A DNA stretch of 37,178 bases from the NCBI GenBank assembly GCA_029008615.1, contig JAQXJI010000011.1, forward strand, positions 1 to 37,178. Direction: 5' to 3'. Made by a program: the position numbers and the translations under genes. The notes under the pieces are model-generated. The model ran no database searches, had not been told where the DNA came from, and saw nothing but the letters and a program-made list of their open reading frames with translations. This document shows positions 11,457 to 29,910 of the stretch, one piece after another. Every line of letters starts with the position of its first letter. Position 1 is the stretch's first letter. The DNA is from Elusimicrobiota bacterium (GTDB taxonomy: Bacteria > Elusimicrobiota > Elusimicrobia > Elusimicrobiales > Elusimicrobiaceae).

Positions 11457-11945
11457 TTAAGCTTGCTCCGCCGCATTGATTTGCTTTTTCTTTTTTGACG
11501 GCAAAGGTACGGTAAGTACGTAAATAAGATAGGTTTTGAGCAGCTCAAGACTGAACATAGCCGAAATTAAAACCATATTTATAAAGTATATCCACCCGTA
11601 ATCCAATGCGGAAAAATCCCCGCCGAAAATCATTTTGACGATATTTGCCAAAGGCAAAGCAGTAAAATCTTCATAAACGTAAAAACAAAAAAACGCCTGC
11701 AAAGCCGATACGACCCAGGCGTTGCGCTCCCTAAGCAAAATCAAAACAATCTGTGCAAAATATATCACGGACATCGCGACAAACACTTTTGTGGCCGTAG
11801 TGGAATAATCAAAGCCGTGATAGGAAAGCGCAAACAAATTCCTTAAAAGGCCGGCAAGACAAAAGAAGAATATAAGATATAAAACGGGGTCTATCGCGCT
11901 TAAGTAAGCAACCGCTTTTCTACCTTTCGATACTATAAGATTCAT
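11457..11945 (-). CDS. Small integral membrane protein of unknown function
   Basis: 162-residue protein with four likely hydrophobic helices (about 20-40, 55-70, 75-95, 115-140) and a basic C-terminus containing KKKKQ. No family is recognised. The ATG at 11945 is preceded by AGGAAAAGAG, a good ribosome site that lies inside the end of ddl, so the two genes overlap by 26 nt. An alternative TTG start at 11963 would add six residues. Its position between ddl and rlmN within a tight operon gives no specific clue to its role. Confidence 0.7.
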   Translation of the reverse strand: MNLIVSKGRKAVAYLSAIDPVLYLIFFFCLAGLLRNLFALSYHGFDYSTTATKVFVAMSVIYFAQIVLILLRERNAWVVSALQAFFCFYVYEDFTALPLANIVKMIFGGDFSALDYGWIYFINMVLISAMFSLELLKTYLIYVLTVPLPSKKKKQINAAEQA

Positions 11946-12981
11946 TTTCTCTTTTCCTGTCAAAAGCCGATTTTATAAGAGAATCAAGCACGTCTTCGTA
12001 CTTCTTGCCGCTTGCCTGCCACAACTGTGGGAATAAACTTGTCGCGGACATACCTGGCAAAGTGTTAATTTCCGAAAAATAAAACTGGCCGTCCGTTCCC
12101 AAAAGGAAGTCCATTCTGGCCAAACCGCATCCGCGAAGAACTTTAAACACCAAAGCGGAAGCTTTACGCATTTCGTCCTGAGTCTGCTGCGGGATATCGG
12201 CCGGGGCTTTTATATCACAGCCGTGAGGATCTTCGTATTTGGCTTTGTAATCAAAAAAAGCGCTGTTTAAAACTTTAAGTTCGCCGCATAAAGACGTATG
12301 AATATTCTTACCCGAACCAACGACCGCGCAGAAAACTTCCCGCGCTTTGTCTATGCCTTTCTCTACCAATATGCTGCCTTGATATTTAAAAGCTTTGGCT
12401 ATGGCGGGTTTAAGTTCTTCCGGCCCGTTTACGCGCGTAACGCCTACGGAAGAGCCGAGGCTGACCGGCTTAACGAACACCGGGTATCCAAGCCCGCCCA
12501 CCGCGGCCTGCAAAGAAGGCAAATCATAGTTAGCGTCTTTTTCAAGTTTTATATAAGGAGCGATTTTAACTCCGTAAAAAGAGGCCAAAAGTTTACAAAG
12601 TTCTTTATCCATACCAAGGGCGCTCGTCAAAACGCCGCATCCGACGTATGGCACTCCCATTATTTCAAACAAGCCTTGCATAGTGCCGTCTTCGCCCATA
12701 GCCCCGTGCAATACCGGGAAGAAGACATCCGCTTTATAAGTGCGTCCGTCAAGCGCGTATAAATTATAATCTTTGCCGATTACCGGGGAAATTTCCATAT
12801 CTCCCTGCCGAAACGGCCCGCATTTTTCCTGCAAGAACCATTTGCCTTCGCGAGAAATAAAAATTTTTATTATTTTGTATTTTTGTTCAAGAATATCGCA
12901 AACGTAGGCGGCCGAATGGACGGAAACTTCGTGCTCCGCGCTTTTGCCGCCGTAGATTACGCCTATGGTTATGTCTTTCAT
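11920..12981 (-). CDS. ddl: D-alanine--D-alanine ligase
   Basis: ATP-grasp enzyme making D-Ala-D-Ala for peptidoglycan precursors. The 353 residues show GGKSAEHEVSV at the N-terminus, VGCGVLTSALGMDK, the ATP-binding VKPVSLGSSVGVTRV and the C-terminal EINTLPGMSATSLFP with the Mg-binding Glu and Asn. Length matches the DdlA/VanA-size group. GGAG lies seven bases before the ATG. It starts 16 nt after the giant coiled-coil gene and overlaps the following membrane protein gene. Together with murA in this window it points to a peptidoglycan-containing cell. Residues that separate D-Ala from D-lactate specificity were not assessed. Confidence 0.96.
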   Translation of the reverse strand: MKDITIGVIYGGKSAEHEVSVHSAAYVCDILEQKYKIIKIFISREGKWFLQEKCGPFRQGDMEISPVIGKDYNLYALDGRTYKADVFFPVLHGAMGEDGTMQGLFEIMGVPYVGCGVLTSALGMDKELCKLLASFYGVKIAPYIKLEKDANYDLPSLQAAVGGLGYPVFVKPVSLGSSVGVTRVNGPEELKPAIAKAFKYQGSILVEKGIDKAREVFCAVVGSGKNIHTSLCGELKVLNSAFFDYKAKYEDPHGCDIKAPADIPQQTQDEMRKASALVFKVLRGCGLARMDFLLGTDGQFYFSEINTLPGMSATSLFPQLWQASGKKYEDVLDSLIKSAFDRKRENESYSIER

Positions 12982-12997: not shown

Positions 12998-15900
12998 TTA
13001 TTCCTTAAAAAGCGACCATTTTATTCTGTAAAAAACGCTTTTTGTCTTTTTAAGAAAATCCGAATATGCTTCGCTGCCCCTGTATGTGGGCGGCAAACGC
13101 CCGACCGGCTTTCTGGAAACACCTTCGTGCGCTTTAATGGAATGGTCGGTAACTTCCATCTCGTCATAAGCCTTTAGGCCGTCCTGCACTTTAGCCAAAG
13201 GATTTTTGGACTGATTAATCGTAGTGGCTTTTACCATTTCGATATCTGGATTGGTGGCGGTAGCCATATTTTCGGCCGTGTCTTCTTTAAAGTTTACGTC
13301 ATCATCACCGAAAATCATACTCAAGTCCATTTCATTGCCGGCGACTTCCACTTCTTCCAAGCCTTGCGTGGGCTCGGGGAAAGCGGCTATCGCGTCGGCC
13401 GAAGAATCATAATGCGTGGAAGTTTTTTCCGCAGGCAGAGAAGTCGAAGTCTTCACGGCGTCCGCAGCCGGGATACTTTGAGTTTTCGGCGACATCGTTT
13501 TTGCGCTGTCCGCAGCCGGTTGCTGTGGCTTTTCCTGCTGAGGGGCGGCCGGGGCCTGAGGAGGCATAGTTTTACGCCTTTCCATAGCGGCTTTGGCGGC
13601 TGCGCGGGCCTGATCCGTTCTGATCTTATTTAAAGTAATCTCAGTTTTGGCTGCGTCCTCTTTTGCGAGGTTCAAAGAAGTGGCAAGATTTTTGTTTTCT
13701 TCTTCAACTTCGTCCAGTTTGCTGGCCAAAGCGCGTTCCCTTTTGTTTGTAACTTCGGCGGCTTGTTTAAGCTCGCGGTTTTCAGCCGTAAGGACTACGA
13801 TTTCTTTTTTAAGTTTTTCGATTACGGCATCATTATCGCTTATTTTGGCCTTTAAGCTGTTTAAAGCTTCGGCTGTTTCTTTCTCCTTGGCGGTAAGGCG
13901 TTCTATCTCCTTAAGCGCGCCGTCAAGCTGCTGTTTGAGAGAGGCCTTTTCCTTAGTGATTCTGGCTATCTGCGCGCTTAAAGCGGCGGCTTTGGCTTTG
14001 GCTAAAGTGGAAGCCGAAGCTTCTTTCTGTTTATAAGATGCCAGTTCGTTTTCCAAGCTTTGAGCTTTTTGGGAAAGAACATCATAGCTGTTTTGAAGTT
14101 TAAGTTTTTCTTCTTCCGCGGATTTAAGGCGGCTGTTATCCGTTTTGAGTTCTTCAAGTTCTTTAACTTGCTTGGCGCATAAAGCGGAAGCGTCTTTCAA
14201 TTCCGTTTCAAGCTTTTCTACCTTCTCTTCATACTCTTTGCGTACGGAAACTATGCCGTTTTCAAAATCCAAAGAGCTGAATTTGCTTTCCGCTTGGGAA
14301 AGCTGCTGCCTTAAAAGCAAAATTTCTTTGGCTTGGTCGGCCGATTTGCGCAGGGCTTCCAGCTTTTCGCCTTGGGCTTTTTTTACTTCCGCGTCCAAAG
14401 CGGCGTTTACGGATTTAAGCTGGGAAGTGTGCTCTTGAAGCTGCTCCACCGCGGAGTGTTCCTGTTTTACCTGCTCTTCGCTCTTGGCTAAAGCGGCCGT
14501 AAGTTTTTGAATTTCCTCTTCCTTCAAAGCAAGATCTTCTTTGGCTTTGGCGTTTTCCTTGCGGAGAGTCAAAATCTCGTTTTCAAGGCGGGCGACGGTT
14601 TCCCTGCTTTCGGAAAACTGCGCTTTAAGCTGATCCACCAAAACGGTATCCTGCAAGAAGCGGCTTTCCGCTTTCGCAAGCTGGGACTTAAGGGTAACGA
14701 TTTCATCGGTTTGTTCAACTATTTTACCGGCTTTAAGGCCCAAGTCCGACACTTTTGAAGATAAATTGTTCTTTTCCTGTTCAAGACCGGCTATTTGACG
14801 TTTAAGATCTTCAACGGTTTGGGTTTCGGCCGAGAGCCTTTCCTGCGCGGCTTTGAGTTTTTCTTCATAATCCGCCGCGGCTTTGCCGTGAGTTTCTTTT
14901 AAAGAGGCGACTTCTTCCTCATAACGCTGTTGGAAATCGGCTAAGGCTTTTGTTTTTTCCTCAAGCTGCTTTAAAATATCATATTTTTCGCCGTTGGCTT
15001 TTTTGAGTTCCTCGTCTATCGCGGCTTTCTGATTTGCCGCGGCGGAAGCTTCGCTCTTAAGCATATTGATGATATTTTCGTTCTCGCGGACGACCGTTTC
15101 CGCTCTTAAAAGCGCGGAAGTGATATCGGCGATTTTGCTTTGCGACTCGGAATTTAAAGCGCGGGCTGATTCTATTTCCCCCAAACGTTTTGCGTTTTCA
15201 GCTTTGGCGTTTTCAAACAAAGCGGAGATATCGGCATTGGCGCGTTTTTGCTCTTCAAGTTGGGCTTTGAGATGTTCTATTTCGCCGGTCATAGCGGCGG
15301 CACGCCTTTCGCTTTCGGCGGCGGAACTTCTTAAAGTTTCAATTTCTCCGTTAAGTTTCAGCGCGGCAGCTTCCCTTTCGGAAATGCCGTTTCTGAGGTT
15401 TTCTATTTCCGCGTTAAGACGGCCTGCTTCTTCATTTTTAGAGGCGAGCTCTTTCCTCAAAGCGTCCATTTCCGCGGAAAGATTTTGTTTTTCTTCGTTT
15501 CTGACGGAAATATCGCGCATTAAATTTTCTATATTTTTGGCAAGGCGCAATTTTTCGGCGTTGCCGGAGTTAACGCCCGCTTGCAGAGATGAGATTTCCT
15601 CGCTCAGACGGCGGCTTTCTTCGTCTTTACCGGTTAAAGAAGCTTTTAAAGAATCTATTTCGGCCGAAAGACGCGCTTTATCCCCGCGCAGTGCGGAAAC
15701 TTCGCCGCTTAAAGCGGAAATCGCTCCGGCGTGTTCCTTTTTCAAATTCTGTATTTCTATTGAAAGATTGGCAACCGCCGCGGCCTGTTCCGATTCCAAG
15801 GCCTTAATGCGGGATTGATAGTCGGAAAGTTCTTTGGAAAAAGTTTCCTCTTTGCCTTTAAGTTCAAGTTCAAAGGAGGATTTTTCCTGTAAAATTTCTT

Positions 15901-18520
15901 CCTTTTGGGCTTTAAGTTCCTCAATCTTCGCAAGATATTCTGCATTGGTTTTTTTGGCGGATTCTTCAGCGGCGGAAAGGGCATTTATGCGCGCTTCGTA
16001 ATCGGCCCCGGCTTTTTTATAGTCTTCCTCACGGGCGATAAATTCTCCGATTTGAGTTTCAAAACCGGCCTTTTCAAGCTTTAATGCCTCTTCGCTGGCG
16101 GAAAGCGCTTTTATGCGCGCTTCATAGTCCGCTCCGGCCTTTTTATAGCTTTCTTCGCGGGCGGTGAACTCCCCGATTTGGGCTTCATAACCGGCTTTCT
16201 CACGTTTTAAAGCCTGCTCGCTTGAGGTAAGGGCATTTATGCGCGCCTCATAGTCGACACCCGCTTTTTTGTAGCCCTCCTCGCGGGAAATGAACTCCCT
16301 GATTTGGGTTTCAAAGCCGGCTTTCGCAAGTTTTAAAGTCTGCTCGCTTGAGGTAAGGGCGTTTATGCGAGCTTCATAATCAGTACCGGCTTTTTTGTAT
16401 CCTTTTTCGCGGGAAATAAATTCCCCGATTTGCGCTTCGTAAGCGGCTTTATCGCGTTTAAGGCCTTCCTCGCGGGCGGAAATTTCCGTAATTTGTGTTT
16501 GATAGCCGGCATTTTCCCTCCGCAAAGCTTCTTCTTGTGCCTTAAGTTCGTTATAAGCGGCCAAATCGCGCTCGTGGCGGGCGTTCATTTTATTGAGTTC
16601 CGCTTTTAAAGACTCTTCCAAAGCGGCGTGTTCGGATTTTAAAGATTCAATGTCTTTGATGTACTTTTCATTGGCGGCCAACGCTTCGTCTTTTTCGGAC
16701 AGGATTTTGCGGATTTCCTCGCTAAGAGCGGCTTTTTCCGATTCAAGACCGGAAAGAGTTTGCTTTAAAGCCTGATATTGATTTTGTTCTCTGGAAAGCT
16801 TTTCCGAAGCGGAGGAAAGTTCCCCGCGCAAAGCTTCGATTTCCTGCAAGTGGCTTTCTTTGATAAATTCGATTTCGCGGTACAAATCGGTTGATTTGCC
16901 TTCAAGCCCGCGTTTTTGTTCATCAAGGTTTTTTACATCGTTTCTTAAAGATTCTATTTGCAGTTTTAAAGTATTTACGAAAGTTTCTTCCTGACGGTAT
17001 TTGTCTTCCGCCCGGCGAAGTTCAAGCGTAATGCTTTGGGCTTCCTGCGCTTTTTGATTTTTAAGAAGTTCAATTTCGCGCATTTGCTCGTTTTTAAGGG
17101 CGGAGATTTCCTTTTCGTGCTGGGCGCGGGCCGCTTCAAGCTGTCTAAGATTTTCTTCCGTTCTTAAGGAAAGAGCTGCGTTTTCCCCGTGCATCTGCTG
17201 GAGCTTCGTTTCCAAGGATAAAATCTTTTCCCTTAGACCGCCTGCTTCGTTTGCGCTTAAGTTTAAAAGTTCCTGCGATTGGGCGATGTTCCTTTTAAGT
17301 TTCTCAATTTCAACCCCCTGGGCGGAAGCCTCCCTCTTGGCGGCTTCGCGTTCGGCACGGGTAGAGTAAACTTCCTTATCCAAAGCGGCTTTGGCGGCTT
17401 CCAAGCCGGAAAGCTGTTCCCTTAAAAAAGAATTTTGTATTTCTTCCTGTTTAAATTTTTCTTCCGTCTTGCTTAAAGCCAGACGAAGGGACATAATTTC
17501 CTTAGCTTGCTCGGAAGATTTCCTGATGGAGGAAAGCTTTTCCTCCCGGACTTTGCGGATTTCGTCATCAAGGGCGATTTTTTCCTGATTTAAAATGGAA
17601 AGGTGCTGCTCCATACGGGAAAGCTTAAAATCGCCGTGGCGGGCCTTTTCCTCAACTTTGTTAAGCTGAACGCGCAGAGAAAGAAGTTCCTTTGTTTGCT
17701 CGGCTGATTTCCTTAAAGATTCCATTTTTTCGTTTTTGGCTCTTTTGACTTCGCTGTTCAAAGCCAAATTTATGGATTTAAGACGGTTGGTTTTTTCCCG
17801 CAGGCGATTGATTAAAGTTTGGTCTTGGTTAATTAAATTTTCTTCGTACTGCAGACGGGCGTTGACTATATTGTCAATGCTGCCCCTTAATACGGAAATA
17901 TCGTTTAAAACGCTTGACCTGCTGGAATTGGCAATAGCTTTAAGACTGCCTTTAAGAGTTTCAATCGTCGCCGACATATTTTTGTAAAACTCGTCATTGT
18001 TCTTAAAGCCCTGTTTTTCCTCGGTGTCGATATCTTCGATTTCGCGCTGAAGGCCGTTGAAATAGGATTTTTCTTTGTTTACGTCCACAAAGCTGGATTC
18101 AAGCTCCGATATTTTCTGCTCCAAATGCCTTAGGCCCTGCCCGCCTTCAAAAGAGGAATCGGCGTAAGAGGGGCGGGAGTAGTCTTCACGATAAGAAGGA
18201 ACTTCCTCCGCGTCGGCGTTATAACGATAAGAGTTTTTGTCGTCCGTATAAGAAGTTTCTTCCGGTTGATGCGGAGCGGAAGAAGAGTATTCTTCCTGCG
18301 CGGGAGCGGAATGCTGAGGCTGTTTCGGCTCTTCCGCGCGGGCGTCGGCGGAAGCAATGCCGTTTTCCTTCACAAAAGAATCTATATCAAAACTGTCGGC
18401 AAAAGGGAAGGCCTCGTCTTTGCCGCTTGAAGCGGAAGCCGCATCAATGCCATCATCATTTTGCAGAGATTGTAAAAATTCGTTGAAATCTTGGTTGTTC
18501 TTATCGTTATCTAAAGACAT
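12998..18520 (-). CDS. Giant cytoplasmic coiled-coil protein with 42-residue repeats
   Basis: 1840-residue protein with no recognised family, signal peptide or membrane segment. Residues 1-130 are acidic and Ser/Pro/Tyr-rich (disordered). About 135-1600 are almost continuous heptad-like helix rich in Glu, Lys, Ala and Leu. About 1600-1700 are Pro/Ala/Thr-rich, and the last 140 residues hold short acidic segments and a basic end (SVFYRIKWSLFKE). Residues 704-871 are four 42-residue repeats, each two 21-residue halves (three heptads), with further half-units from residue 662. A different unit containing LRKSAEQ.KE and a following LR.QL segment recurs near residues 250, 330 and 1370. No ATPase head is present, so it is not an SMC protein. 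A cytoskeletal, scaffold or polarity role is possible but unproven. AGAGGAAAT precedes the ATG. It heads the long operon. Confidence 0.85.
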   Translation of the reverse strand: MSLDNDKNNQDFNEFLQSLQNDDGIDAASASSGKDEAFPFADSFDIDSFVKENGIASADARAEEPKQPQHSAPAQEEYSSSAPHQPEETSYTDDKNSYRYNADAEEVPSYREDYSRPSYADSSFEGGQGLRHLEQKISELESSFVDVNKEKSYFNGLQREIEDIDTEEKQGFKNNDEFYKNMSATIETLKGSLKAIANSSRSSVLNDISVLRGSIDNIVNARLQYEENLINQDQTLINRLREKTNRLKSINLALNSEVKRAKNEKMESLRKSAEQTKELLSLRVQLNKVEEKARHGDFKLSRMEQHLSILNQEKIALDDEIRKVREEKLSSIRKSSEQAKEIMSLRLALSKTEEKFKQEEIQNSFLREQLSGLEAAKAALDKEVYSTRAEREAAKREASAQGVEIEKLKRNIAQSQELLNLSANEAGGLREKILSLETKLQQMHGENAALSLRTEENLRQLEAARAQHEKEISALKNEQMREIELLKNQKAQEAQSITLELRRAEDKYRQEETFVNTLKLQIESLRNDVKNLDEQKRGLEGKSTDLYREIEFIKESHLQEIEALRGELSSASEKLSREQNQYQALKQTLSGLESEKAALSEEIRKILSEKDEALAANEKYIKDIESLKSEHAALEESLKAELNKMNARHERDLAAYNELKAQEEALRRENAGYQTQITEISAREEGLKRDKAAYEAQIGEFISREKGYKKAGTDYEARINALTSSEQTLKLAKAGFETQIREFISREEGYKKAGVDYEARINALTSSEQALKREKAGYEAQIGEFTAREESYKKAGADYEARIKALSASEEALKLEKAGFETQIGEFIAREEDYKKAGADYEARINALSAAEESAKKTNAEYLAKIEELKAQKEEILQEKSSFELELKGKEETFSKELSDYQSRIKALESEQAAAVANLSIEIQNLKKEHAGAISALSGEVSALRGDKARLSAEIDSLKASLTGKDEESRRLSEEISSLQAGVNSGNAEKLRLAKNIENLMRDISVRNEEKQNLSAEMDALRKELASKNEEAGRLNAEIENLRNGISEREAAALKLNGEIETLRSSAAESERRAAAMTGEIEHLKAQLEEQKRANADISALFENAKAENAKRLGEIESARALNSESQSKIADITSALLRAETVVRENENIINMLKSEASAAANQKAAIDEELKKANGEKYDILKQLEEKTKALADFQQRYEEEVASLKETHGKAAADYEEKLKAAQERLSAETQTVEDLKRQIAGLEQEKNNLSSKVSDLGLKAGKIVEQTDEIVTLKSQLAKAESRFLQDTVLVDQLKAQFSESRETVARLENEILTLRKENAKAKEDLALKEEEIQKLTAALAKSEEQVKQEHSAVEQLQEHTSQLKSVNAALDAEVKKAQGEKLEALRKSADQAKEILLLRQQLSQAESKFSSLDFENGIVSVRKEYEEKVEKLETELKDASALCAKQVKELEELKTDNSRLKSAEEEKLKLQNSYDVLSQKAQSLENELASYKQKEASASTLAKAKAAALSAQIARITKEKASLKQQLDGALKEIERLTAKEKETAEALNSLKAKISDNDAVIEKLKKEIVVLTAENRELKQAAEVTNKRERALASKLDEVEEENKNLATSLNLAKEDAAKTEITLNKIRTDQARAAAKAAMERRKTMPPQAPAAPQQEKPQQPAADSAKTMSPKTQSIPAADAVKTSTSLPAEKTSTHYDSSADAIAAFPEPTQGLEEVEVAGNEMDLSMIFGDDDVNFKEDTAENMATATNPDIEMVKATTINQSKNPLAKVQDGLKAYDEMEVTDHSIKAHEGVSRKPVGRLPPTYRGSEAYSDFLKKTKSVFYRIKWSLFKE
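15908..16537 (-). repeat. 126-bp tandem repeat array inside the giant coiled-coil gene
   Basis: Four in-frame 126-bp units (15908-16411 on this strand) encode 42-residue repeats beginning with RE and containing YKKAG, DYEARI and EKAG-type segments. Equivalent bases recur at 16021, 16147, 16273 and 16399, exactly 126 apart. Two diverged 63-bp half-units extend the array to 16537. Units differ at synonymous and non-synonymous sites, so the duplication is not brand new. Confidence 0.85.
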
Positions 18521-18566
18521 ATTTCCTCTTAAATGTTATATATTAATATATAATACGCCATATAAA

Positions 18567-18595
18567 ATTTAAGCAGAAATAAGCCCTACTGTCAA
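18567..18595 (-). promoter_or_regulatory. Promoter of the coiled-coil-to-gpmI operon
   Basis: A perfect TTGACA (18590-18595) is followed after 17 bp by TTAAAT (18567-18572), a 4/6 match to the -10. AT-rich DNA continues to the start codon at 18520. No terminator separates it from folC, so some read-through from upstream is also possible. Confidence 0.55.
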
Positions 18596-18618: not shown

Positions 18619-19833
18619 TCAACCCGCCACGACGTTTAAAGCGGAAGCCAAATAGAAGCTTCCAGCGGCGATGACATTGCCGCTTAGCTCCAAAGGATTA
18701 AAAGATGAAATATCCCTTAAAAAGGATGTTTTTGCATTTTTATTAAAGCAGTTTAAAAGAATTTCAGGCGCGATATTGCGGGCCTTATCAGGGCAAGCCA
18801 AAACTATATTTTTGAAATTACTTTCGGCAAGCGCACAAAGAGCTTCATAGTTATGACCTTTTGAAGCCGCCAAAACAAGAGTATCTTCCGGCCCGGCGAA
18901 AGGGCTTTGTTTGTAAGTCTTTATAAGTTCTTTAAAAGCTGCCGGATTATGCGCACCGTCCCTAATAAAATATTTCCCGTTTTTAAGTTTAAACACTTCA
19001 AAGCGGCAGGGCAGAGCGAAACCGGCGCAAGCTTTTTGACATATTTTTGCTTCCGCACCCAAAATAAAAGCTGCTTTAACGGCCAATGCCGCGTTCTGAT
19101 TTTGCGCCACTCCGATAAGTTTGGTAACGAAATGACGGCCTTCAAAATCAAAACTGCTTTGAAGTTTTTTAAAATTATGGCTTAGATTTTCTGGTTTTTC
19201 AACCTGAAAAAGCGGCGATTTTAAAGACGACGCTTTTTTTTGCGCTATACGCAAAGCCGCTTTAGGCAAAGGGCCGAGCAAAACGGGGATTTTAGGCTTT
19301 ATAATGCCACATTTCTGCGCGGCGATTTCTTCAATGCTTGCGCCGAGCATAGCGCAGTGATCCAAAGCTACGGAAGTTATTACGGATAGTTCCGGCGCAA
19401 TGATATTTGTACTGTCCAAAAGACCGCCGATACCGCATTCAAATACGGCAAAATCCACTTTGTTTTCGGTAAAATAATAAAGTGAGGCCAAAGTTAAAAC
19501 TTCAAAAAAATTAAGTTCTGATGTTTGATTGTTTTTTACGGCTGCGACGGCTTCTATAAAAGAAGTTTCGTCTATATTCGCGCCGTTTATTTTAATGCGT
19601 TCCAAAGGGCTTTTTATGTGAGGAGAAGTAAAAAGACCGGTTTTGAAGCAGGACTTATTAAGTATTTCCGCCAAAAGGCCGGCGACGGTGCCCTTGCCGT
19701 TTGTACCCGCTATATGAACCGCCTTAAATTTAAGCGGCAGAAGATTCATTTTCAAGGCGGTGTCTTTTACATTTTGCAAGCTGCTTTTCCCCCTTGCGGA
19801 AAAAAGCGAGTTCAAACAATCTTCAAAAGTCAT
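18619..19833 (-). CDS. folC: Folylpolyglutamate synthase / dihydrofolate synthase
   Basis: Mur-ligase-family ATP-dependent enzyme that adds glutamate to dihydropteroate and/or folates. The 404-residue product begins with a helix containing TFEDCLNSLF and has the P-loop HIAGTNGKGT (about 40-49), then LFTSPHIKSPLERIKINGANI, VFECGIGGLLDSTN and, in the C-domain, RDGAHNPAAF. All are FolC signatures. The ATG at 19833 is chosen because GGCGG lies five bases upstream; a TTG seven codons earlier is the alternative. It lies 30 nt after murA and ends the prfA-prmC-murA-folC unit. Whether it has one or both activities cannot be told from sequence. Confidence 0.93.
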   Translation of the reverse strand: MTFEDCLNSLFSARGKSSLQNVKDTALKMNLLPLKFKAVHIAGTNGKGTVAGLLAEILNKSCFKTGLFTSPHIKSPLERIKINGANIDETSFIEAVAAVKNNQTSELNFFEVLTLASLYYFTENKVDFAVFECGIGGLLDSTNIIAPELSVITSVALDHCAMLGASIEEIAAQKCGIIKPKIPVLLGPLPKAALRIAQKKASSLKSPLFQVEKPENLSHNFKKLQSSFDFEGRHFVTKLIGVAQNQNAALAVKAAFILGAEAKICQKACAGFALPCRFEVFKLKNGKYFIRDGAHNPAAFKELIKTYKQSPFAGPEDTLVLAASKGHNYEALCALAESNFKNIVLACPDKARNIAPEILLNCFNKNAKTSFLRDISSFNPLELSGNVIAAGSFYLASALNVVAG

Positions 19834-19863
19834 AAAATCCGCCTTAAAATGCAATCGGAAAAT

Positions 19864-28911: not shown

Positions 28912-29910
28912 ATGGATACAAAAGAACAGATAATAGCGATAGTTTTCGGCAATAAAAAAATGTTTTTTAAAGCCGCTTTGATTTCCGTAAGGGAAGCCGA
29001 CACGCAAAGCACTTCCGAACTGGAAGAAATCCCCGACGGCCAAGTAAAGGAATACTACGCCGATTTGTGTATGGAGAAAACTTACAAAAACGGCAAACTT
29101 AAAAAATCTCTGACGCTTACCGGAAGAACGGAAAGGACTTTTTCCTCCATATCGGATAAAAACGAACCAAATGCCGCGCTTTTCGCCCAAGGAAAAACTT
29201 TTATAAGGAATTTGCGCCAAAGGTTGTTTTTTATAGACGGGGAACAAATCGGCGCGCAGGAACTGGACGAAGCCGGACGGGTGTTAAGCGTTCAGGGAAA
29301 GGCTTTCAGCGGGGAAGCAAAAGAATTTTACCCCAACGGCAACGTAAAGAGGGAAGCTTCTTTCAAAAACGGCCTGCCTTGCGGAAGCGTAAAAACTTAC
29401 GACAAAGAAGGCAGACTGATATCCCAGGAAGAATATAAAAACGGACTCAGAGACGGCAAAGCCAAACGCTTTAATTTTATCCATAATATACCTACGGAAG
29501 AACAACTTTCTTACAAAGACGGATTTTTGAACGGAACCAGAAAGATCTTCGGGCCGGACGGAAAATTGCTTATGTCCGAAGAGTACCGGGCCGGCAAACG
29601 CGACGGAGAGGTAAAATATTTTAATTCGGAAGGTTCTATGGAAGTTAAAGCCGAATACAAAAACGGCAAAAAACACGGCAAAAGGATTTTCTATTACGAC
29701 AACGGAAATATTATGCACGAAGAAACATTTTCCGGCGGAATGCTGCAAGGAGAGCGGAAAACTTACGCAAAAAACGGACGGCTTACGCTTACAGAAAATT
29801 ACAAGGATAATCTGCTCTGCGGGCAGAGGACTGCGTTTGATACGGAAGGAAAAGAACTCCGCAAAGAACTTTACGAAAACGGCAAACTTATAAACAAAGA
29901 GGATAAATAA
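28912..29910 (+). CDS. MORN-variant (YwqK-like) repeat protein
   Basis: 332-residue protein without signal peptide or membrane helices, so probably cytoplasmic. Residues about 135-325 hold roughly eight imperfect repeats of 22-25 residues with the pattern Y..G......Y.NG...G....F...G, as in EFYPNGNVKREASFKNGLPC and YYDNGNIMHEETFSGG. This matches the bacterial MORN-variant repeats of YwqK-type proteins, which form an elongated beta sheet. The first 130 residues have weaker repeats. The ribosome site is weak (AAAGACAG). It lies 2 nt before ispE and is probably co-transcribed with it. Binding partner and function are unknown. Confidence 0.82.
   Translation: MDTKEQIIAIVFGNKKMFFKAALISVREADTQSTSELEEIPDGQVKEYYADLCMEKTYKNGKLKKSLTLTGRTERTFSSISDKNEPNAALFAQGKTFIRNLRQRLFFIDGEQIGAQELDEAGRVLSVQGKAFSGEAKEFYPNGNVKREASFKNGLPCGSVKTYDKEGRLISQEEYKNGLRDGKAKRFNFIHNIPTEEQLSYKDGFLNGTRKIFGPDGKLLMSEEYRAGKRDGEVKYFNSEGSMEVKAEYKNGKKHGKRIFYYDNGNIMHEETFSGGMLQGERKTYAKNGRLTLTENYKDNLLCGQRTAFDTEGKELRKELYENGKLINKEDK

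Follow-up and report, generated by a model that had tools for sequence, protein, structure and literature searches.

The window analysed here, a 37,178-nucleotide stretch of DNA from an Elusimicrobiota bacterium of the family Elusimicrobiaceae (GCA_029008615.1, contig JAQXJI010000011.1), encodes a coiled-coil protein of 1840 amino acids (hereafter CC) on its minus strand; the earlier note on this DNA had given no strand. CC is single-copy in the window's genome, and its ATG start is supported by a ribosome-binding site, AAGAGGAA, and by the conserved N-termini of its orthologues (Table 1). The gap between CC and the upstream folC-like gene spans 98 bp and contains a candidate promoter. Promoter-scan counts were not above those of shuffled sequences, and the promoter owes its credibility to conservation across species: six species share the two hexamers unchanged while their flanks diverge, so the CC gene probably heads its own transcript. 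The ddl gene starts 16 bp downstream of the CC stop codon and the subsequent genes are tightly packed, which, together with the conserved promoter, supports the earlier proposal that CC leads a long operon. The gene for a multi-TM membrane protein lies beside ddl in nearly all Elusimicrobiaceae examined and stays with the CC–ddl pair when other neighbours change. Elsewhere, the window carries a probable zinc metalloprotease gene (2369-3763; weak M6-domain match, HEFGHVLGL motif) and, as read from the sequence, genes for a MORN-like repeat protein (28912-29910), an acyl-CoA dehydrogenase followed by EtfB- and EtfA-like proteins, the EtfA-like one with a ferredoxin-like N-terminus (32134-35767), and a type IV pilin-like protein (36465-37004).

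Table 1. Features of the CC locus, in window coordinates; residue numbers refer to CC.
Feature	Position	Strand	Basis or remark
Multi-TM membrane protein, no family match	11457..11963	-	usually adjoins ddl
ddl, D-Ala-D-Ala ligase	11920..12981	-	constant downstream neighbour of CC in Elusimicrobiaceae
CC gene	12998..18520	-	ATG to stop, 1840 codons
Amphipathic C-terminal tail helix with R-x-K-W, residues 1816-1840	13001..13075	-	conservation; AF2 helix 1817-1839
Disordered Pro/Ala/acidic C-terminal linker, residues 1652-1815	13076..13567	-	AF2 pLDDT <50 over most
MDLSMIFG motif within the disordered C-terminal linker	13307..13330	-	D, L, S, I, F, G invariant in 7 genus members
Coiled-coil rod, proline-free, residues 130-1651	13568..18133	-	periodicity, composition, AF2
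Internal duplication copy B, residues 1306-1475	14096..14605	-	L149 match, E 2e-36
Tandem repeat, 126 bp / 42 residues, 4.1 copies	15971..16482	-	TRF
Internal duplication copy A, residues 232-298	17627..17827	-	L149 match, E 3e-16
Disordered acidic/Ser-rich N-terminal tail, residues 1-129	18134..18520	-	AF2 pLDDT <50 over 55-126; composition
N-terminal short helix, residues 6-20 (includes DFNEFLQSLQ)	18461..18505	-	AF2; conserved in orthologues
Ribosome-binding site AAGAGGAA	18523..18530	-	ahead of the CC ATG
Promoter TTGACA-18-TAAATT, folC–CC gap	18566..18595	-	cross-species conservation
folC-like Mur-ligase-fold gene	18619..19854	-	upstream of CC

CC consists of a coiled-coil rod of approximately 1,500 residues between disordered ends. 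No proline occurs across residues 118-1652 (1,535 amino acids), and over residues 420-1620 the sequence exhibits a hydrophobic period of 3.50-3.54 residues with a power of 11-25, where shuffled sequences average about 5; residues 130-420 give a weaker signal. Such a composition and periodicity would be very unlikely by chance. AF2 models covering the two ends of the protein place helices at residues 127-166, 177-198, 201-382, 388-419 and 1544-1651 between low-confidence ends, and further helices at the extremes (residues 6-20 and 1817-1839, the latter with pLDDT in the low 70s), separated from the rod by low-confidence linkers. The earlier picture of a heptad helix between disordered ends is borne out for the rod and the disorder, but the ends are not featureless, as a conserved amphipathic helix closes the C-terminus. 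Searches of CC for a Walker A or ABC signature and for a TM segment or signal peptide found none (maximum 19-residue hydropathy 0.73), Pfam and NCBIfam gave no match above the cut-off, the PDB sequence search returned nothing, and neither did Foldseek with the N-terminal model (best E 2.2). These results confirm the earlier description of a 1840-residue coiled coil devoid of a recognisable head domain and of ATPase, membrane or export signals; a defined family spanning the full length, SMC and crescentin included, was looked for and none was found.

The protein terminates in a near-invariant amphipathic tail (…DFLKKTKSVFYRIKWSLFKE) that the earlier note had missed. Its R-x-K-W-[S/A] motif (13016-13027) is present in 35 of the 36 Elusimicrobiales homologues examined, and R, K and W are invariant in all 25 aligned proteins from the Elusimicrobiaceae (f1); the tryptophan is the sole one of CC, as it is in most f1 orthologues. 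In comparisons with the three nearest species, in which dS is near saturation and the ratios are rough, the 25 tail codons exhibit a pN of 0 at a pS of 0.61-0.68, and the disordered regions of the gene a pN of 0.27-0.29. No other part of the protein is as constrained as these last 25 residues. The tail has a moment of 0.53 and, in the window, a charge of +2; in other genera the charge goes down to -3. Across windows and genera it spans about +3 to -3, so that docking on a protein and anchoring in lipid are equally likely. The idea that R-x-K-W is a shared sorting tag was rejected, as searching the genome with a degenerate DNA pattern for it gave a single occurrence, the one in the CC gene. A tail profile matched in 61 f1 genomes and weakly (E 0.008-0.05) in the sister family (f2), mostly in coiled-coil ORFs of 735-861 aa; those whose ends were read finish in RLKWAIKGK or a similar sequence. 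A profile of the extreme tail alone (C-terminal 30 residues) fails to reach the tails of f2 or of the f1 genera g3 and g5, and outside the Elusimicrobiales, in other classes, CC tails differ.

A search with CC found a match in 17 of the 18 genomes of its genus, the lone exception being 69% complete. In five f1 genera (g1, g2, g3, g5 and g6) the CC gene lies directly upstream of ddl whatever flanks the pair further out, the order being folC-CC-ddl in g3 and CC-ddl in g5; the g4 genome G020 has no CC gene beside ddl. Positional orthologues range from 544 to 1840 aa. Residues 218-284 of the short orthologue L149, a protein of about 625 aa, match CC twice (copies A and B in Table 1), and the long form therefore arose through internal duplication, together with a species-specific 42-residue repeat, a comparable one being found in none of the eight genus relatives tested. 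The repeat equals six heptads, and multiples of seven preserve the heptad register. Of the filament, cell-length ruler or scaffold previously suggested, a scaffold or filament is still the best general idea; the ruler is disfavoured by the span of orthologue lengths and by the approximately four 42-residue repeats gained in this species alone. In two genus members the gene is interrupted, by a split into two ORFs in G006 and by an in-frame TAA stop codon in G014 (L146, 4252-7889; L144, 1698-4679), which may reflect decay or assembly error. CC may thus be dispensable, or both interruptions may be assembly errors.

Because coiled coils cross-match easily, more distant relationships were traced by a stepwise chain with reversed decoys, using phmmer and hmmsearch scored at PDB database size (Z=177,635). 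CC matched the short f1 forms of g2/g6 at 8e-44, a g2/g6 profile matched g3/g5 members at 2.5e-15, and a g3/g5 profile matched the f2 sister-family proteins at 1.6e-36; a joint g3/g5 and f2 profile then reached CC directly at 3e-8. Whatever the profile, no reversed decoy did better than 8e-4, and in an unrelated-coiled-coil control against the whole PDB the best scores were 0.06 for an E. minutum-type protein and 0.74 for a g5 protein. BLAST with reversed controls agrees with the chain. Most small hhalign comparisons between groups failed and full-length profiles with decoys succeeded. A profile of the N-terminal domain (A4, E<=1e-8) gave no direct match in the window's genome, the link running via the g3/g5 intermediates; without g3 and g5, the connection between CC and the sister family would be weak. 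Given the profile chain, the common folC-CC-ddl position in g3 and the common tail motif, we take CC and the motor-linked genes described below to be orthologous. CC is a diverged, elongated, lineage-specific member of a previously unnamed, Elusimicrobiota-wide coiled-coil family.

In the sister family, the CC gene lies within a cluster of motor-like genes. The order at locus L163 (3020-14350) is PorV/PorQ-family protein with TPRs, FliG-domain protein, CC, MotA, MotB, lipoprotein-like gene, mnmA and ddl, and the Pfam and NCBIfam assignments include PorV/PorQ (NF033709, over its cut-off), MotA (PF01618) and MotB (PF13677 plus OmpA). In most members the FliG-like protein begins with a hydrophobic segment; approximately 200 further residues, one TM segment near residue 210, FliG domains and TPRs follow, a layout suggestive of a FliF-FliG-type fusion. 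FlhA (PF00771) was not found in 59 of the 60 genomes searched, which means that the cluster does not represent a flagellum there. Profile A4 matched in 79 of 248 Elusimicrobiota genomes and 40 of 76 genera, inside and beyond the class, and at 20 sampled loci CC lay mostly beside FliG-like and PorV-like genes, often with motA-motB. A search of the literature found no description of Elusimicrobiota FliG/MotAB or gliding, and a paper on non-flagellar MotAB (PMC12505986) does not mention the phylum.

Further observations concern the variety of these clusters. The non-flagellar set of PorV-like, FliF-FliG-like TPR, CC, MotA, MotB and lipoprotein genes also occurs at L162, L164-L168, L231-L233, L235-L237, L242 and L243, and genomes with it nearly always proved to lack FlhA where they were tested. 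An additional ORF of 1,500-2,100 aa, coiled-coil-like where read and sometimes TPR-ended, lies between the FliG-like and CC genes at L227, L228, L229, L234, L238 and L245; at L227 and L229, this large ORF is followed by a probably exported protein of approximately 1,200 aa with the C-terminus GxYIYQ...VVVAR. Most f2 genomes (G026, G027, G031, G033, G053, G057 and others) encode several more FliG_C proteins, each of approximately 500 aa, as well as additional MotB proteins; these genes often lie close together on one contig and are probable paralogous motor systems. A rare f2 member (L255, G059:C78) encodes FlhA and a separate 320-aa FliG, pointing to a true flagellum or a related export system.

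Gene content is different in the window's genus and in its relatives from the gut. FliG_C, MotB_plug (above cut-off) and a PorV orthologue were not found in the g1, g2 and g6 genomes searched, the window's genome included, apart from one marginal PorV-like match (9e-7) in G023. These gut lineages have nevertheless kept CC, with ddl still adjoining, and the rod is under purifying selection in them. We infer that CC was ancestrally linked to the motor genes and that these later disappeared from the gut lineages. Since the f2 gene follows the FliG-like gene and stands upstream of motA-motB-lipoprotein-mnmA-ddl, the CC–ddl pair looks like a remnant of the motor cluster. The ddl linkage, previously read as a hint at cell shape or envelope organisation, is genuine and holds throughout the family; this neighbourhood looks inherited, however, and is consequently weak evidence for a cell-wall role.

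We propose that CC would form parallel homo-oligomeric coiled coils in the cytoplasm, approximately 0.22 micrometre long (about 220 nm, from 1,500 residues at the standard value of 0.1485 nm). The C-terminal R-x-K-W helix would dock either on a membrane protein or directly on the cytoplasmic membrane, at its inner face; the N-terminal short helix and the disordered tails would recruit clients. Originally the protein may have served a non-flagellar envelope motor driven by MotAB as its cytoplasmic scaffold or tether, an association to which gene order points; after motor loss, it would have been kept as a membrane-linked structural scaffold. To this overall explanation, an elongated family member that once served a motor as scaffold or tether and was retained as a membrane-linked scaffold, we give slightly better than even chances. 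A bolder reading, which we put forward tentatively and at somewhat less than even chances, holds that the Elusimicrobiota possess an undescribed envelope motor, flagellum-independent and driven by MotAB, of which the family forms a structural part. This motor, probably for gliding or surface transport, would be built from a PorV-like outer-membrane protein, a FliF-FliG-like TPR rotor, the coiled-coil scaffold or track, MotAB and a lipoprotein, and the window protein would be its relic, kept when the gut lineage lost the motor, lengthened by internal duplication and given a new job.

The strongest alternative, which we nonetheless regard as unlikely, is an intermediate-filament-like cytoskeletal element of the crescentin/FilP/Ccrp type, which would assemble laterally into filaments and set cell shape, unrelated to an ancestral motor. 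CC has the long heptad rod, the short non-helical ends and the lack of an enzymatic domain of such an element, and crescentin is likewise described as a filament-forming coiled coil in two publications (PMC3087291, PMC10873595). A g3 member (L150) also gave a sub-threshold crescentin-rod (PF19220) match (E 0.007, 15.8 bits versus a cut-off of 100), but the window protein gave none, so that crescentin membership fails. Moreover, the window's genome already encodes MreB and a bactofilin, and CC is thus not the sole cytoskeletal candidate; the extreme length variation and the invariant tail favour tethering as much as polymer packing. A scaffold for cell-wall synthesis, functionally tied to Ddl and the adjacent envelope genes, is improbable. 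The adjacency of CC and ddl throughout the Elusimicrobiaceae examined, with close spacing in the window and usually the same multi-TM gene, speaks for it, but Ddl is a soluble cytoplasmic enzyme, and loss of the four genes that intervene in f2 explains the adjacency. A chromosome-organising SMC-like or Rad50-like protein can be dismissed almost entirely, since the SMC_prok_B match (E 2e-32) reaches 112 bits against a 567-bit cut-off and involves coiled-coil segments only (best 924-1203), a product of coiled-coil cross-matching in NCBIfam, and CC has no ABC-type ATPase head (Walker A, LSGG) and no PDB match.

Under the favoured scaffold-or-tether explanation, what was an anonymous giant coiled coil belongs to a family that can be traced, has a conserved docking tail and a set of ancestral partners, and plays a role that is experimentally testable. 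The explanation further draws attention to a non-flagellar cluster of FliG-MotAB motor genes that is widespread in a poorly studied phylum and undescribed in the literature searched; if true, this would be a case of a motor's scaffold outliving the motor.

Several known systems invite comparison. CC shares the long heptad rod, disordered ends and lack of an enzyme domain with crescentin and other intermediate-filament-like proteins, but has no sequence membership, a much longer rod, the R-x-K-W helix and relatives in a motor cluster. SMC and Rad50 proteins resemble it in coiled-coil composition, hence the strong but partial profile scores, and differ in their ATPase head and signature motifs. 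The tail may be analogous to the C-terminal membrane-targeting amphipathic helices of the FtsA/MinD type: it is amphipathic, but its charge, +2 in the window, goes down to -3 in other genera. In ZorAB, a long cytoplasmic coiled coil is attached to a MotAB-type stator, as proposed for the CC family; CC, however, is a separate protein, the MotA is of normal size and no defence-gene context was seen. The AglZ–AglRQS gliding system of Myxococcus likewise combines a large cytoplasmic coiled coil with a flagellum-independent MotAB-type motor. AglRS is named as a non-flagellar MotAB homologue in PMC12505986. CC differs from AglZ in lacking a receiver-like domain, the rotor-like partner of its relatives is a FliF/FliG-like TPR protein, and the window's genome retains the coiled coil without the motor.
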